A stretch of DNA of 64,000 nucleotides from Leptolyngbya sp. BC1307 (GTDB taxonomy: Bacteria > Cyanobacteriota > Cyanobacteriia > Phormidesmidales > Phormidesmidaceae), in the NCBI RefSeq assembly GCF_002286735.1, contig NZ_NRTA01000015.1, positions 1-64,000 of the forward strand. Reading direction: 5' to 3'. Of the stretch, positions 1,977 to 8,964 are shown in pieces. Below the pieces are notes generated by a model. That model ran no database searches, was not told the DNA's origin, and saw only the letters and a program-made list of their open reading frames with translations. A program made the position numbers and the translations under genes. Positions within the stretch are counted from its first letter, which is position 1, and each line of letters starts with the position of its first letter.

Positions 1977-2007
1977 AGGACACTACTTCAAAAGCAGGTA
2001 GTGTCCT
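1977..2007. terminator. Perfect 10-bp inverted repeat between converging genes
   Basis: AGGACACTAC (1977-1986) and GTAGTGTCCT (1998-2007) pair perfectly around an 11-base loop and are followed by TTTGTTA on the plus strand. It lies between the stop of the baeRF gene and the stop of the converging TIR gene, as expected of a bidirectional intrinsic terminator. Confidence 0.75.
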
Positions 2008-2010
2008 TTG

Positions 2011-2544
2011 TTATCGAGGATAGTGTTGATTGGTCTGAGTGGCGCTGTTACCATCACCAACGACAATCTGACTATTATGGGCACTGCCGCCGATAGAGAT
2101 GTGGCGATCGCCCCTACCTGCCATCTGGCCCAGCTCTACAGACGACGGCTTGTCCGACCCGATCTGATGCAAATCTCGCACCAGCGACATCAGCCCCAGC
2201 GTATAGTCAGATTCGGCAGTGAGATCGTGATAGTGCAAACGGCTCAGCTCTTCTGGAATAGCGGACTCTGCTACCCGCAGCGGCAGTACTGGTTTCTCAA
2301 CCATTTGAGCCATTTCCCACTCCCACGCCACGTACTGGGAATCGGCTGCACTTGGTGTAAGCAGCACTAGCACCGCGTCAACCTGTCTGATAGCTGCCCT
2401 TAGCTGTTCTTTCCAGGCTTGCCCGCCCTGCATATTTTCAATATCTTGCCAGACCGTAAATCCGCTACGGTTCAATTCGGTGCGCAGCCGGGCAGCGGCA
2501 TTAGCACCGTCAGCGCGGGCGTAAGATAGAAATACCTGAGTCAT
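2011..2544 (-). CDS. TIR-domain protein with a C-terminal IGGSAHNSQIVVGDGN tail
   Basis: A 177-residue protein. Residues 1-125 are a TIR domain: QVFLSYARADG (box 1), GFTVWQDIENMQGGQAW, DAVLVLLTPSAADSQYVAWEWEMA with Glu75/Glu77 where the NADase glutamate of TIR enzymes lies, then KPVLPLR. Residues 148-166 carry a GG-x3-NSQIVVGDGN motif, a short repeat-like tail often found in cyanobacterial proteins next to TIR, CHAT or NACHT modules. The role may be signalling or NAD-cleaving defence, but no partner gene adjoins it. ATG 2544 is preferred over TTG 2565 because the TIR fold starts there. It is divergent from the next gene with 14 bases between the starts. Confidence 0.8.
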   Translation of the reverse strand: MTQVFLSYARADGANAAARLRTELNRSGFTVWQDIENMQGGQAWKEQLRAAIRQVDAVLVLLTPSAADSQYVAWEWEMAQMVEKPVLPLRVAESAIPEELSRLHYHDLTAESDYTLGLMSLVRDLHQIGSDKPSSVELGQMAGRGDRHISIGGSAHNSQIVVGDGNSATQTNQHYPR

Positions 2545-4295: not shown

Positions 4296-5516
4296 CTAGC
4301 CCAAGTGATCCATCACTGAGAACATCGGCAGGTACATCGCCACCAGAATTGAACCCACCATCCCGCCTAGCACCACGATCATAATCGGCTCCATAATGCT
4401 GGTGAGTGCCTTCACCGCCTGCTCTACTTCGTCCTCATAAAAATCTGCTACCTTCATCAGCATCTGGTCGAGTTCACCCGTTTCTTCACCGATGCTGATC
4501 ATCTGAATCGCCATCACCGGAAACACGCCATGCTCTTGCAAGGCAATGCTGATCATCCCACCCGACTGAATCTCTGTTTGAGCCGAGTTGATAGCATTTG
4601 CAATCACCTGATTGCCCGACGTATCGCGAACAATTTCCAGCGCTGTCAAAATCGGCACCCCCGAACGCGACAGCGAACCAAAGGTACGGCAAAATCTGGC
4701 CGTTGCCGACTTCTGTGCTAAGTCACCAAATAGCGGCATTTTCAAGAAAAAGCCATCCATCGTCACCCGACCCACAGGCGTCTTGTAATACTGCTTATAG
4801 ACAAATACCAGTACGGCGATAACAGCAACCAGTCCTAAGCTGAGATACCAGGTACGCAGCATCTTACTAATAGCCATGAGCGCCTGGGTAAACAGCGGCA
4901 GCGGTGCGCCCAAATCATCAAAAATATCAGCAAAAATCGGCAGCAAAAACACCGTCATGCCGATAAAAATGGTGGTTGCTAAAAAGCCTACCGTCACTGG
5001 GTAAGCCATTGCTGACTTGATCTGGTTCTGTAACCGGTTGAGGTCTTCGAGCAGCTTTGCCAGCCGGTTTAATACTTCATCTAGTACACCGCCTACTTCA
5101 CCCGCTTGCACCATACTCACGTACAGATTGTCAAAGCACTTAGGATGCTTCCGCATAGAGTCAGATAGGCTAGTACCCTGCTGCACGTCGGCGTTGATGC
5201 CCATTAGGGCGGCCTTGAGCCGGGCGTTCGGGCACTGATCGGCCAAAATGCTAATGCCGCGTACCAGCGCCACCCCCGAGGAGACTAGCGCTGCAAACTG
5301 ACGCGAAAAGACCGCTTTATCCTTGACGGTGACACTCGTCATTGAGGTTTTGATATCAGCCATACTGAAGCTGAAGCCCACACTCTCTTTAATATCTTGA
5401 ATGTGCATCCCCTTCTGTGACATCAGGTTACGCGCATCAGAGGGTGAAGCTGCTTCTACTTTCTGGCGAATAGCTTTACCAGTATTATTCCGGCCAATGG
5501 CAACGTAGGTAGGCAT
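4296..5516 (-). CDS. pilC: Type IV pilus inner-membrane platform protein PilC
   Basis: A 406-residue member of the type II secretion F / PilC family, the inner-membrane platform on which the PilB and PilT motors act. After a short N-terminal cytosolic domain (MPTYVAIGRNNTGKAIRQ, about 1-60) come two repeated T2SSF domains (about 70-195 and 275-395), each ending in membrane segments (about 170-195, 220-240, 375-400). The motifs FSRQFAALVSSGV and the GEETGELDQML near the end are family hallmarks. It is third in the pilB-pilT-pilC order and is followed by a strong terminator. Length is normal. Confidence 0.95.
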   Translation of the reverse strand: MPTYVAIGRNNTGKAIRQKVEAASPSDARNLMSQKGMHIQDIKESVGFSFSMADIKTSMTSVTVKDKAVFSRQFAALVSSGVALVRGISILADQCPNARLKAALMGINADVQQGTSLSDSMRKHPKCFDNLYVSMVQAGEVGGVLDEVLNRLAKLLEDLNRLQNQIKSAMAYPVTVGFLATTIFIGMTVFLLPIFADIFDDLGAPLPLFTQALMAISKMLRTWYLSLGLVAVIAVLVFVYKQYYKTPVGRVTMDGFFLKMPLFGDLAQKSATARFCRTFGSLSRSGVPILTALEIVRDTSGNQVIANAINSAQTEIQSGGMISIALQEHGVFPVMAIQMISIGEETGELDQMLMKVADFYEDEVEQAVKALTSIMEPIMIVVLGGMVGSILVAMYLPMFSVMDHLG

Positions 5517-5613
5517 GGGGTTTCTCTCTTTTTTAGTGGCTGAAGTGTGAGTGGCTGAAAGGTTCTAAAAGGCGCAAAGTAGTTACACGCCTCACAATCG
5601 AAAGGCTATAGCG

Positions 5614-5688
5614 TCTGCCAAAGCAGAAGTCCGATTGGTTGTGGCTTCGACTACGCTCAGCCAGAGAAAGATTCTGGTTGCCGGACTT
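5614..5688. repeat. Structured intercistronic element between pilT and pilC
   Basis: The 190-base gap between pilC and pilT holds two nested palindromes: TCTGC-CAAA-GCAGA (5614-5627), then AAGTCCG (5627-5633) pairing with CGGACTT (5682-5688) around an inner TGGCT/AGCCA stem (5642-5646 and 5659-5663). The inner GGCTTCGACTACGCTCAGCC resembles a short palindrome that I recall as dispersed in many cyanobacterial genomes. It could stabilise or process the mRNA between the two genes. Confidence 0.5.
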
Positions 5689-5706
5689 ATGCTAAACACT
5701 GCAAAA

Positions 5707-6825
5707 TTACTGACGAGCGCCTGCTTTAGCCCCGGCCTTGGCAGCCCCTGGTTTATCGCCAATTAGCCGCTGTAGTTCTTCAGGGCGAGAAGTTTTAGCC
5801 ATCGCCGAGTCGAAACTAATTACGTTCTTTCTATAGAGGTCAGCCAGCGCCATTTCCAAAGTTTGCATAGACAGCCTTCCTCCTGTTTGAATTGCGCCGT
5901 AAATCTGAGCGGTTTTACCCTCGCGGATCATATTCGAGATGCCCGGTGTCACCACCATAATTTCTTGCGCCATCACTCGGCCAAATTCACCGGGTTTAGG
6001 ATTAGCTTTAGAGACTAGAGTTTGGCTCAATACTGCAACAAGTGAGTTAGAAAGCTGGACTCTAATCTGCTGATGTTGGTTGGGCGGGAAAACGTCTACA
6101 ATTCTGTCTACGGTCTGCGCCGCTGAGCTGGTGTGCAAAGTGCCAAATACGAGGTGACCGGTCTCTGCTGCCGAAATTGCTAGCGAAATGGTTTCTAGGT
6201 CACGCATCTCACCAACTAGAATAACGTCCGGGTCTTCTCGCAGCGCGCCTCTCAACGCATTGGAGAAACTTTTGGTGTCTTCTCCTACCTGCCGCTGGTG
6301 AATCAGGCTTTTGATGGGCTCATACACAAATTCAATCGGATCTTCTACCGTCAAGATGTGCTCTGCCCGGGTCAAGTTGATGTTGTTGATCATCGAAGCC
6401 AGCGTGGTTGTCTTCCCCGATCCCGTAGGGCCAGTCACCAGCACTAGCCCTCTAGGTTTCTCTGAGAGTTCGGTGACAATTGGCGGTAAGCACAGCACAT
6501 CCATGCTAGGAATTTTAGAGCTTAGCGCTCGCAAACAAGCCGCATAGGTGCCGCGATCTTTATACACGTTCACCCTAAATCGAGCTAATCCGCGTACCCC
6601 GTAAGAGCAATCTAGCTCCCAGGTTTGCTCTAAGATTTTTCGCTGCGAGTTGTTCAACATGCTAAAGATTAGCCGCTGGCACTGATCTGCCGACATCGCT
6701 GGGTGGTCGGTAGCCGTCAGATGACCGCTCACTCGAATATAAGGCGGGAGGCCGGTAGATAAGTGCAGGTCGGAGCCACCGCGCTCAATGACTTCTTCCA
6801 TCAAGTCTTCGATCATTAATTCCAT
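5707..6825 (-). CDS. pilT: Twitching motility ATPase PilT
   Basis: A 372-residue hexameric ATPase that drives pilus retraction at the inner membrane. An N-terminal PAS-like domain (GGSDLHLSTGLPP, about 17-28) precedes the RecA-like core with Walker A GPTGSGKT at 132-139, the Asp box (TVEDPIEF), Walker B-type DPDVILVGEMRD and His box (GHLVFGTLHTSSA). The AIRAGK-like signature of PilT reads MIREGKTAQIYGAI. A short basic Ala/Gly-rich tail ends the protein. It lies between pilB and pilC on the same strand. Confidence 0.95.
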   Translation of the reverse strand: MELMIEDLMEEVIERGGSDLHLSTGLPPYIRVSGHLTATDHPAMSADQCQRLIFSMLNNSQRKILEQTWELDCSYGVRGLARFRVNVYKDRGTYAACLRALSSKIPSMDVLCLPPIVTELSEKPRGLVLVTGPTGSGKTTTLASMINNINLTRAEHILTVEDPIEFVYEPIKSLIHQRQVGEDTKSFSNALRGALREDPDVILVGEMRDLETISLAISAAETGHLVFGTLHTSSAAQTVDRIVDVFPPNQHQQIRVQLSNSLVAVLSQTLVSKANPKPGEFGRVMAQEIMVVTPGISNMIREGKTAQIYGAIQTGGRLSMQTLEMALADLYRKNVISFDSAMAKTSRPEELQRLIGDKPGAAKAGAKAGARQ

Positions 6826-6954
6826 GAGATGTTTCCTCTAGTGAGTCGTTGTTGGGTTGTTGTTGAGTGAGCGTGTTGGCTGTTGCTGAAGGAAAAAGCT
6901 GGTGAAAGCTTTTGCAGTGTGAGATTAGCGACTTTGGGACACGGCGATCGCCCG

Positions 6955-8964
6955 CTAGTCCTTATAGCGCGGTGTCAAACAGTAAGGGCAATCCATCCAT
7001 TCGTGATGTAGCTCAGCAGTGCACTGTGTGCAGGAGAGTACGCTTTTGCGCTTAGCCTTTAGCTCAGCTTCTAACCCTTTGTCGGTAAAGGTTACTCGCT
7101 CTACCTCTTCTAAGGTGGTATGGCCCTCCTTAACTAGATTTAAGCTGTAGGCCAGCAGCGTATGCATACCCTCTTCCACCGCTGCTTCTTTGATTTGCTC
7201 AGTGGGTGCACCCTCTGAAATCAGCTGCTGCAATCGCTCAGTCACGCGCATAACTTCATACACACCGACCCGTCCCTTGTAGCCGTTGCCCTGACACTTA
7301 CCGCAAAGCTGACCTGACTCTCTCATTTGGGCAGTTTGGTCACTAGGTACCTGGTTGGCCTTATATAGCGTCATCTCAAAGTCGCCAGAGGCCGTCATGC
7401 CAAATCGAGCTAGCTCTTCTGAAGTCGGCTGGTACTCGACTCGACACTCAGGGCACACCCGGCGCACCAGACGCTGAGCTAGCACCCCAATCAAAGAGCT
7501 AGACACCTGAAAGGACTCAACGCCCATCTCTCCTAATCGAGAAACCGCACCGGCTGCGTCGTTAGTGTGCAGCGTCGTCAATACCAGGTGCCCTGTTAAA
7601 GCGGCCTCAATTGCTGTTTTTGCCGTCTCAGGGTCACGAGTTTCACCCACCAGGATCACATCTGGATCTTGTCGCAAAAAGGCCCTCAAGATAGAGGCAA
7701 AGTTCATCCCCTTCTCGCGAATTACCTGCACCTGAGTGATGCCCGGCAGCGCATATTCAATCGGGTCTTCAGCCGTACTGATGTTCACCCCCGGATCGTT
7801 ACGCTCTGAGAGGACAGAGTACAGCGTGGTGGTTTTACCTGAGCCGGTCGGTCCGGTTACCAGGATCAAGCCAAACGGCTTTTTGGCCATCTCCTGAACG
7901 ATGTGTAGCGTTTCACTATCGGTGATGAGTTTGTCTAGCCCTAGCTGAGTTGCTGAGTTATCCAAGATGCGCAGCACGACTTTCTCGCCGTAGCGACTGG
8001 GTAAAGTACTCACCCGGAAATCGACCTTGCGATTTTGAAAGACTCGGCGAATTCTGCCGTCTTGGGGCATACGGCGCTCGGCGATGTCTAATTCAGAGAT
8101 GATTTTGAAGCGTGCCGTTACCGCTGGAATGATCTTCTTAGGCAGCGGCGGGAAAGCCTCCTGCAAGACGCCGTCTTTGCGAAAGCGAATGCGTAGCGAC
8201 TCTTCTTGGGGCTCCACATGGATATCTGAGACATCTTCCTGCAGGGCTTTCACTAAGATCTTGTTGACCAGGGCGATCACTGGGGCCGCGTCCGCATCTT
8301 GTAAAGCTGCATCGAGGTCAGCGTCCTCTTCAGCGACAGCCTCTAGGCTGTTGCCATCGAGTTCTAGGTCGTTTAGGTCAGTTCTGACATCGACCGATTT
8401 TTCAAGGTCGCGCTTTTTTTCTCTGGCAACTTGTTCGTCCAGGTACTTGGCCATCAGGCGCTGATAGTCATCTACTGTGATCACCATGCGCCGCAGCTTG
8501 ATGGCTTTTGGCCTGAGAATGCGGTTTAGATCATCTTGCGCCTCTAGATTTTCCGGATCGACCATCGCTACCAATACTGCCTGGTCTTCGGCTTCGCCCG
8601 TTTGTGAGAGGGGAATTAAGCGATGACGACGGCAGATATCTACCGGAATGAGATTGCCAATTAAATTGGTAACTTGAGCATCTGATATGTTTTCTATTTC
8701 GGGGTCGAGAGACTCAACACCGTAGATAATTTTGAGTTCAAAAAGCTGCTGCTTTTTATACTGACGCAGTAGCTCTGGCGATAGCTGCTGCCCGGCTATC
8801 GTCTCCAAAACATCGGTGAGCGCGCGGCCTGATTTACGGCTTTCAACCAGGGCTTGCTGCATCTGACTGCCGTCTACAAAGCCTGCTCGAATCAGCTGAT
8901 TGCTAAAGGGCGAAAAGCTCTTTTGTAAGACGAGGGCCTTTCGCGTGGATGAGGAGTTTGTCAT
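6955..8964 (-). CDS. pilB: Type IV pilus assembly ATPase PilB
   Basis: A 669-residue extension ATPase of the GspE/PilB family. Residues about 1-165 form MshEN-type N-terminal domains (FVDGSQMQQALVESRKSG; LIPVDICRRHRLIPL), which in relatives can bind c-di-GMP. The core has GPTGSGKTT, the Asp box, DPDVILVGETRD and GHLVLTTLHTNDA. A tetracysteine zinc site (CPEC ... CGKC) follows, and the extreme C-terminus has a second CTQC ... CPYC pair. It starts the leftward pilB-pilT-pilC cluster and is divergent from grpE over a 282-base gap holding a HIP1 core. Confidence 0.95.
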   Translation of the reverse strand: MTNSSSTRKALVLQKSFSPFSNQLIRAGFVDGSQMQQALVESRKSGRALTDVLETIAGQQLSPELLRQYKKQQLFELKIIYGVESLDPEIENISDAQVTNLIGNLIPVDICRRHRLIPLSQTGEAEDQAVLVAMVDPENLEAQDDLNRILRPKAIKLRRMVITVDDYQRLMAKYLDEQVAREKKRDLEKSVDVRTDLNDLELDGNSLEAVAEEDADLDAALQDADAAPVIALVNKILVKALQEDVSDIHVEPQEESLRIRFRKDGVLQEAFPPLPKKIIPAVTARFKIISELDIAERRMPQDGRIRRVFQNRKVDFRVSTLPSRYGEKVVLRILDNSATQLGLDKLITDSETLHIVQEMAKKPFGLILVTGPTGSGKTTTLYSVLSERNDPGVNISTAEDPIEYALPGITQVQVIREKGMNFASILRAFLRQDPDVILVGETRDPETAKTAIEAALTGHLVLTTLHTNDAAGAVSRLGEMGVESFQVSSSLIGVLAQRLVRRVCPECRVEYQPTSEELARFGMTASGDFEMTLYKANQVPSDQTAQMRESGQLCGKCQGNGYKGRVGVYEVMRVTERLQQLISEGAPTEQIKEAAVEEGMHTLLAYSLNLVKEGHTTLEEVERVTFTDKGLEAELKAKRKSVLSCTQCTAELHHEWMDCPYCLTPRYKD

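Follow-up and report, generated by a model that had tools for sequence, protein, structure and literature searches.

A Stand-Alone TIR Protein of Leptolyngbya with a C-Terminal Motif Found on Effectors and STAND Receptors of Related Cyanobacteria

The TIR gene and its surroundings

The window, that is, the whole stretch of DNA analyzed here, is 64,000 nucleotides of the Leptolyngbya sp. BC1307 genome, and its first base is the first base of contig C15. Near this end, an ORF on the minus strand (2544..2011; ATG at 2544, stop codon ending at 2011) encodes a stand-alone TIR protein of 177 residues, or 184 if an alternative upstream TTG start is used. Its C-terminal tail reads RGDRHISIGGSAHNSQIVVGDGNSATQTNQHYPR. 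The ORF, the TIR domain, and the tail sequence of the preliminary description were all confirmed. The features are as follows.

2011..2544, minus strand: TIR protein gene, 177 amino acids, ATG start, stop codon included (ORF; TIR_2 PF13676, E 1e-24; Nodosilinea orthologues)
2206..2535, minus strand: TIR domain, residues 4-113 (TIR_2 match; AlphaFold model; nearest solved folds SARM1 TIR and SPARTA TIR)
2320..2322, minus strand: codon of Glu75, predicted to be catalytic (opposite SARM1 Glu642; invariant in the alignment)
2047..2112, minus strand: tail motif GDRHISIGGSAHNSQIVVGDGN, residues 145-166, putative coupling module (profile matches)
2014..2046, minus strand: final 11 residues, SATQTNQHYPR (alignment with orthologues)
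1977..2007, no strand: inverted repeat of 10 bp without mismatch, AGGACACTAC/GTAGTGTCCT, loop of 11 bases (read directly from the sequence)

The TIR gene has genes for a cupin, a baeRF protein, and an N-formylglutamate amidohydrolase as neighbors, and no NTPase was matched in any of the four nearest genes. A pattern search found no second motif-bearing frame within the window. The earlier remark that no sensor gene adjoins therefore holds as far as the contig goes; since contig C15 begins there, only 2 kb is known on one side of the gene. The baeRF gene (740-1933; bacterial release-factor-like family 7/3, E 8e-48) is convergent with the TIR gene, and the inverted repeat lies between the two. 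It is a possible shared terminator; a terminator scan, whose loop limit is 8, did not score it. The idea of a frameshifted second motif or partner just 3′ of the TIR stop codon was dropped, since the end of the baeRF gene is only 77 bases away. Farther into the window, three minus-strand genes (4296-8964), by eye those of the pilus assembly proteins PilC, PilT, and PilB, have no visible connection to the TIR gene.

The TIR domain scores 87.8 bits with the TIR_2 model PF13676 (curated cut-off 28) and 25.0 bits with the ThsB_TIR model PF08937 (cut-off 21.2). The PADLOC models rank in the order of SAVED-TIR (E 2e-15), Argonaute-TIR (E 3e-13), and the best ThsB model (E 6e-9). In the AlphaFold model, which was the best of five (two were poor) and was built from four sequences, the block mean pLDDT of the TIR domain is mostly 81-91, with three blocks at 59-71. 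The closest PDB folds are the TIR domains of human SARM1 and of SPARTA, and the MyD88 and MAL filaments are among the structural matches. From residue 133 onward the pLDDT is below 50 and the tail has no modelled structure. Thus, the tail is probably flexible. An alignment of PDB-profile HMMs places Glu75 opposite Glu642, the catalytic residue of SARM1. Glu75 and Glu77 are both invariant in all six aligned sequences, the window protein included, and Glu75 is the likelier catalytic residue of the two because of its alignment with SARM1 Glu642. The protein is a member of the TIR family with a conserved glutamate at the SARM1 catalytic position. TIR proteins of this kind often destroy NAD, and the window protein is likewise predicted to be an NADase-type enzyme. 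It resembles the SARM1 and SPARTA NADases in fold and in this glutamate, while its presumed activation device is a short tail, in contrast to the SAM/ARM domains or the Argonaute partner of those systems.

The tail motif in cyanobacterial genomes

Is the tail motif conserved? With the whole window protein as the query, three full-length relatives were found in 63 genomes of the same family: those of the MAG D1_MAG_00036 (56% identity), Nodosilinea sp. LEGE 07088 (53%), and Nodosilinea nodulosa PCC 7104 (51%). All three orthologues keep both the TIR domain and the motif, and the identity of 51-56% extends across nearly the whole protein in the alignment. Among seven genomes of the genus, only the window genome has a full-length TIR protein with such a tail. 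A relative in the same genus (G054) has a close TIR domain (55% identity), which forms the end of a leucine-rich-repeat, GTPase-like chain (domains named by eye). Two distant TIR-related proteins were found in a plasmid collection and none in a phage collection.

When the four tails were made into a profile, 21 of 60 family genomes had a match at E<=0.1; this count includes the four source genomes, and its weakest and partial matches may be noise. Twenty-seven aligned motif copies gave the consensus DRSIxIGGSxxGSxxxxGDGNxV. The 27-row profile matches the window at 2023-2118 (E 9.5e-13), the window tail itself being one of the rows. A 23-copy profile, which leaves out the four C-terminal TIR tails and has two rows from caspase-motif-TIR fusions, scores the window tail at 30.9 bits (E 3.6e-8 at Z=5000), a score that none of 2000 shuffled tails reached, although statistics are weak for short motifs. 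Together with the conservation in the orthologues, this score indicates that the motif is more than a chance resemblance. The accessible parts of nine publications (PMC7889193, PMC9815663, PMC8195603, PMC7159879, PMC7885112, PMC8086366, PMC10907252, PMC12881547, and PMC12261475) contain no description of the motif by sequence.

I performed a census of the motif with the 27-row profile in 242 genomes of the class, which are an even draw from a larger set and mostly drafts. At E<=0.001, 50 matches were found in 25 genomes, 10 of the 50 being rows of the profile itself. In nine genomes, a total of 27 matches lie 10 kb or less from another match on the same contig, whereas random placement gave on average 0.35 and at most 6 such close matches in 2000 trials. 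The other 23 matches, some of which are on short contigs, are isolated at the 10 kb scale, and of the 25 motif-bearing genomes, 15 have a single match.

Pfam was run on 45 motif-bearing frames, a partial set picked from the loci of the four-tail and 27-row searches; since these loci span only 1.5 kb on each side, a motif remote from its NTPase could be missed. Eighteen of the 45 proteins are STAND NTPases, namely 12 NACHT-like proteins (two of them below the Pfam cut-off) and six nSTAND1 proteins, and the motif is N-terminal of the NTPase in all 18. Of the 12 NACHT-like proteins, four have a Pfam EAD10 match that contains the motif. On the enzymes, the motif usually lies at the other end. Eight proteins are caspases, of which six are single with the motif C-terminal of the enzyme and two are caspase-motif-TIR proteins. 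In four of the five CHAT proteases the motif lies behind the enzyme, the exception being a protein of the sister species G057, in which it lies in front. The remaining proteins are three pentapeptide proteins, one alpha/beta hydrolase, one TPR protein, two proteins with EAD10 only, and seven without a Pfam domain at the thresholds used. In seven loci, a caspase or CHAT gene lies 2 kb or less from a STAND gene and both genes encode the motif (L097 of G003, L105 of G035, L179 of G172, L180 of G183, L181 of G140, L184 of G076, and L186 of G192).

The motif is thus a module carried by caspases, CHAT proteases, TIR proteins, and STAND receptors of cyanobacteria, often in neighboring genes, as is expected of a docking part. 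This bears out the preliminary description, in which the tail was taken for a module placed on different enzymes. In related genomes, the motif is paired between effectors and STAND receptors.

Two of the motif genes, L097:4025-5536 and L107:1-1704, encode caspase-motif-TIR triple fusions, the one in G003 (L097) being near a motif-NACHT gene. Small motif proteins of about 142-164 residues are a recurrent uncharacterised partner (L103:5010-5435, L102:7044-7484, L183:3111-3572, L110:5292-5783, and L112:6582-7022). The three of the five that were scanned (L103, L102, and L183) have no Pfam domain. Large motif genes adjoin the small ones, and the large protein is an nSTAND1-WD40 protein in both loci scanned (L103 and L183).

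Possible partners in Nodosilinea and Leptolyngbya

In the two Nodosilinea orthologues (PCC 7104 and LEGE 07088), the tail has the motif and then a second, EAD10-like motif, which is absent from the final 11 residues of the window protein in the alignment. The EAD10 model gives 22.8 bits with the PCC 7104 tail, below the cut-off of 24.1. In both strains, the TIR gene is followed by a gene whose product has an EAD10 N-terminus (E 6e-11 and 1e-10); the C-terminus of this partner was modelled as helical with the LEGE 07088 copy. In the MAG, the contig ends directly behind the TIR gene. In Nodosilinea strains LEGE 07298 and WJT8-NPBG4, the TIR domain is fused directly to this helical domain without the motifs, at the same place and between the same flanking genes (judged by eye). 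Motifs and direct fusion thus interchange in Nodosilinea, a pattern classically read as evidence that the two parts are joined by the motifs.

It had been proposed that the tail is a docking part for a distant partner carrying the same motif and that such partners be sought in the genome. The modular and paired motif of the relatives favors the docking part of this proposal, while a partner in the Leptolyngbya genome itself is weakly supported. Outside the rows put into the profiles, no clear second copy was found in this genome with the 43-residue tail alone, the 27-row profile, or a 5-row profile. The 27-row profile recovered the tail itself and a 15-position match (E 0.06) that has a stop codon inside and was taken as noise. 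In the seven genomes of the genus, the 5-row profile recovered its own five rows and seven other matches (E 0.09-1.5), also taken as noise; among the five noise frames inspected, the one on G053:C15 appears by eye to be helical and to end in a short Gly/Asn-rich stretch. Clear copies were present only in G000, the genome of the window, and in G057, each of which has a receptor and clients (the TIR protein in G000; a CHAT protein and a pentapeptide protein in G057). Since the profile was made from these same five rows, this search shows only the absence of further clear copies. No EAD10 protein was found over the cut-off in the Leptolyngbya genome (best E 0.6). The other TIR_2 matches of the genome, on contigs C2 and C18, were set aside, as they have no such motif.

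Two candidates emerged from targeted comparisons only. The second-best place of the tail query in the genome, C13:91443-91505, has an E value of 0.7, which is not significant alone. This segment directly precedes NB-ARC in an NB-ARC-TPR protein of 1036 residues (gene at L065:5096-8206), and 12 of 18 residues are identical (AHNSQIVVGDGNSATQTN / ADNSQISIGDGTTLNQTN). The score was reached by one of 20000 shuffled tails and none of 20000 shuffled linkers. The segment has no counterpart of the motif's first arm, and its scores with the two family profiles are negative. The N-terminus of the protein, which has no Pfam match over the cut-off, looks like the Bell domains of BASS systems, where BASS stands for the bacterial amyloid signalling sequences of Dyrka et al. 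2020. In homologues of the C13 protein, the same place before the NB-ARC domain is, by eye, taken by a TIR-like region in some and by one of several different Gly/Asn-rich stretches in others; effector and connector have apparently been swapped in this family. In the homologues at C4:163280-164038 of the same genome, at G014:C11:125735-126763, and at L140, a stop codon (TGA in C4, TAG in G014) lies just after the Gly/Asn-rich stretch. Thus, a motif protein and a receptor appear there as two abutting genes, while C13 has one fused gene.

The tail was also compared with 669 frames of at least 60 amino acids near the NACHT, NB-ARC, nSTAND1, EAD10, and other TIR matches of the genome, frames of overlapping loci being counted repeatedly. 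This comparison added a 1168-residue protein on contig C10, in which GDVTVQISGDLTGQLIVGDHN precedes a P-loop NTPase, followed by a hydrophobic segment (seen by eye) and then by Ig- and cadherin-like repeats. This STAND-like protein (gene at L208:4004-7510) looks like a membrane-spanning receptor. The pairwise match is modest, since 365 of 20000 shuffled tails equalled it. With a profile containing its G057 counterpart, the segment scores 8.6 bits (0 of 2000 shuffles), and without the G057 row, 1.3 bits (16 of 2000). The counterpart in G057 adjoins the same aspartyl-tRNA synthetase-like gene (named by eye), and its motif is clear (2 of 20000 shuffles; E 0.002 with a TIR-only profile). The window protein, the C10 protein, and the G057 proteins have a VGD form of the motif in common in the copies seen. 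Neither gene is a near neighbor of the TIR gene, given the distance to the closest contig edge of 56 kb or more for C10 and 17 kb or more for C13. PADLOC gave only a TPR model on C13 when run on the C10, C13, and EAD10 partner proteins. The C10 and C13 STAND proteins are treated as candidates for unlinked receptors of the window TIR protein, not as findings.

A proposed receptor-coupled NADase and its alternatives

It is fairly probable that the tail couples an NADase-type TIR domain to a STAND/NLR-type receptor. Of the readings considered, coupling, as published for BASS and EAD10, is the most likely because the motif is modular, enzyme and STAND genes carrying it are neighbors, and Nodosilinea has both the pairing and the fusion. 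Counting against docking is the absence of an adjacent motif partner in the window, although the contig end 2 kb away hides that side. Also counting against it are the 23 isolated matches and the 15 single-match genomes of the census, the lack of a second copy in the Leptolyngbya genome by profile, the weakness of the C10 and C13 segments, the CHAT protein with its motif in front, the restriction of the tailed full-length TIR protein to one of seven genomes of the genus, and the unstructured tail of a model set in which two of five were poor. The window protein is probably an effector, and the gene for its receptor would lie elsewhere in the genome. It would consist of three parts, namely the NADase-type TIR domain, the flexible linker, and the C-terminal coupling motif, and would be inactive at rest as a dispersed protein. 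A STAND/NLR-type receptor with a matching motif before its NTPase, for which the unlinked proteins on C10 and C13 are candidates, would sense a trigger and oligomerise, and its motifs would then recruit and cluster the TIR tails. Clustering of TIR domains is the usual switch for such NADases. The clustered domains would cleave NAD+, leading to growth stop or death of the infected or damaged cell, which would be a role in defence. The recruitment may proceed via beta-arch or amyloid templating, as proposed for BASS, or via a different homotypic contact of the kind proposed for EADs; given that the tail docks to a STAND receptor, the chances of such an amyloid mode are about even.

What else could the tail mean? 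The protein might be an orphan relic, that is, a TIR protein from a Nodosilinea-type two-gene system which has lost the second motif and the partner and now does little or works alone. Two orthologues do combine a double-motif tail with an EAD10 partner next door, whereas the window has one motif and no partner; the Leptolyngbya genome has no EAD10 protein over the cut-off, and the TIR gene is patchily present in the genus. However, the frame is intact, conservation covers Glu75, the core of the TIR domain, and the motif's anchor residues, and STAND proteins with matching segments are kept in the same genome, so that I regard the relic as unlikely. Still less likely is a tail for self-assembly, by which the motif makes homo-filaments of the TIR protein and the trigger acts on the TIR protein itself without a receptor. 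MyD88 and MAL are examples of filament-forming TIR domains with a related fold, and according to the review PMC7889193, BASS motifs have been turned into prions. Self-assembly needs no motif on a neighboring gene, but different neighboring genes have the motif in common far above chance in the relatives.

A Thoeris-type role, in which the protein would act like ThsB and produce a cyclic ADP-ribose as the signal to a separate effector, is very improbable. Like ThsB, the window protein is a stand-alone TIR protein that passes the PF08937 cut-off, and the PADLOC ThsB models match it. However, the TIR_2 model fits far better, the SAVED-TIR and Argonaute-TIR models rank above ThsB, and there is no ThsA-like neighbor, 2 kb being known on one side. 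The window protein also differs in its tail motif; ThsB proteins are not known to have such a tail. A bolder form of receptor coupling was also considered, in which the TIR NADase is an unlinked, exchangeable client of the membrane-spanning STAND receptor on C10, and one receptor has different clients in different species: the TIR protein here and the CHAT and pentapeptide proteins in G057, with the TIR lineage in Nodosilinea tied to a phycobiliprotein-fold partner. It is rather improbable in this full form. If true, it would be a plug-in immune circuit joined only by a short, possibly amyloid, motif.

Receptor coupling through such a motif resembles systems already in print, and the docking idea is thus not new. 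BASS are short motifs that an effector carries at its C-terminus and an NLR at its N-terminus. The review PMC7889193 mentions effectors of the TIR and CHAT types for BASS, and amyloid templating was shown for some of the motifs. The window protein likewise has a short conserved G/N-rich motif at its C-terminus. In contrast, an adjacent NLR with the same motif was not found at the window locus, where the contig ends 2 kb away, while adjacent motif-NLRs are present in other loci of the same motif class. EADs are proposed in PMC7159879 to couple effectors to NTPase cores via homotypic contacts, which is the same idea. As for EAD10 (PF19954; Kaur et al. 2020/2021), the Nodosilinea partner is an EAD10 protein, and the motif lies within EAD10 in some NACHT-like proteins. 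The window protein itself has only the motif part, with no Pfam EAD10 match at E<=1 and no second copy next door. Taken strictly, it departs from BASS at one tested point and from EAD10 at two. By analogy, it is likely to work like a BASS or EAD10 effector; its orphan position and the VGD form of the motif are distinctive.

If receptor coupling is right, the locus would offer a compact and testable case in which a bacterial NLR signals to a TIR protein via a short motif and the two genes are apparently unlinked, and one could ask whether the motif sequence alone pairs a receptor with an effector. The coupling motifs of the relatives, found on caspases, CHAT proteases, and perhaps a phycobiliprotein-fold protein, suggest that cyanobacteria swap effectors behind one connector.

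The last of these is the TIR-linked protein of Nodosilinea (L060:6368-7396, L061:3145-4158, L064:3809-4972, and L148:4001-5182), whose C-terminal domain resembles phycobiliproteins. Every leg of this reading is weak. In one of the three relatives scanned, the Pfam Phycobilisome model matched with E 4e-4, which does not reach the cut-off; the fused relative gave E 0.11, and the third has no listed match. With the partner model (mean pLDDT 58.6, higher over residues 189-332), Foldseek found no match at E<=0.001 (best E 0.01), and a PDB sequence search found nothing at E<=1. VIA-align gave Z 14-16 over residues 189-332, although, by the tool's own caution, helical models that lack true relatives commonly score a Z of about 14. 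Among the 50 VIA-align matches listed, all but one ("bacterial fluorescent protein") are phycobiliproteins by title. A TIR domain fused to a phycobiliprotein-like domain would be odd and is worth a look.
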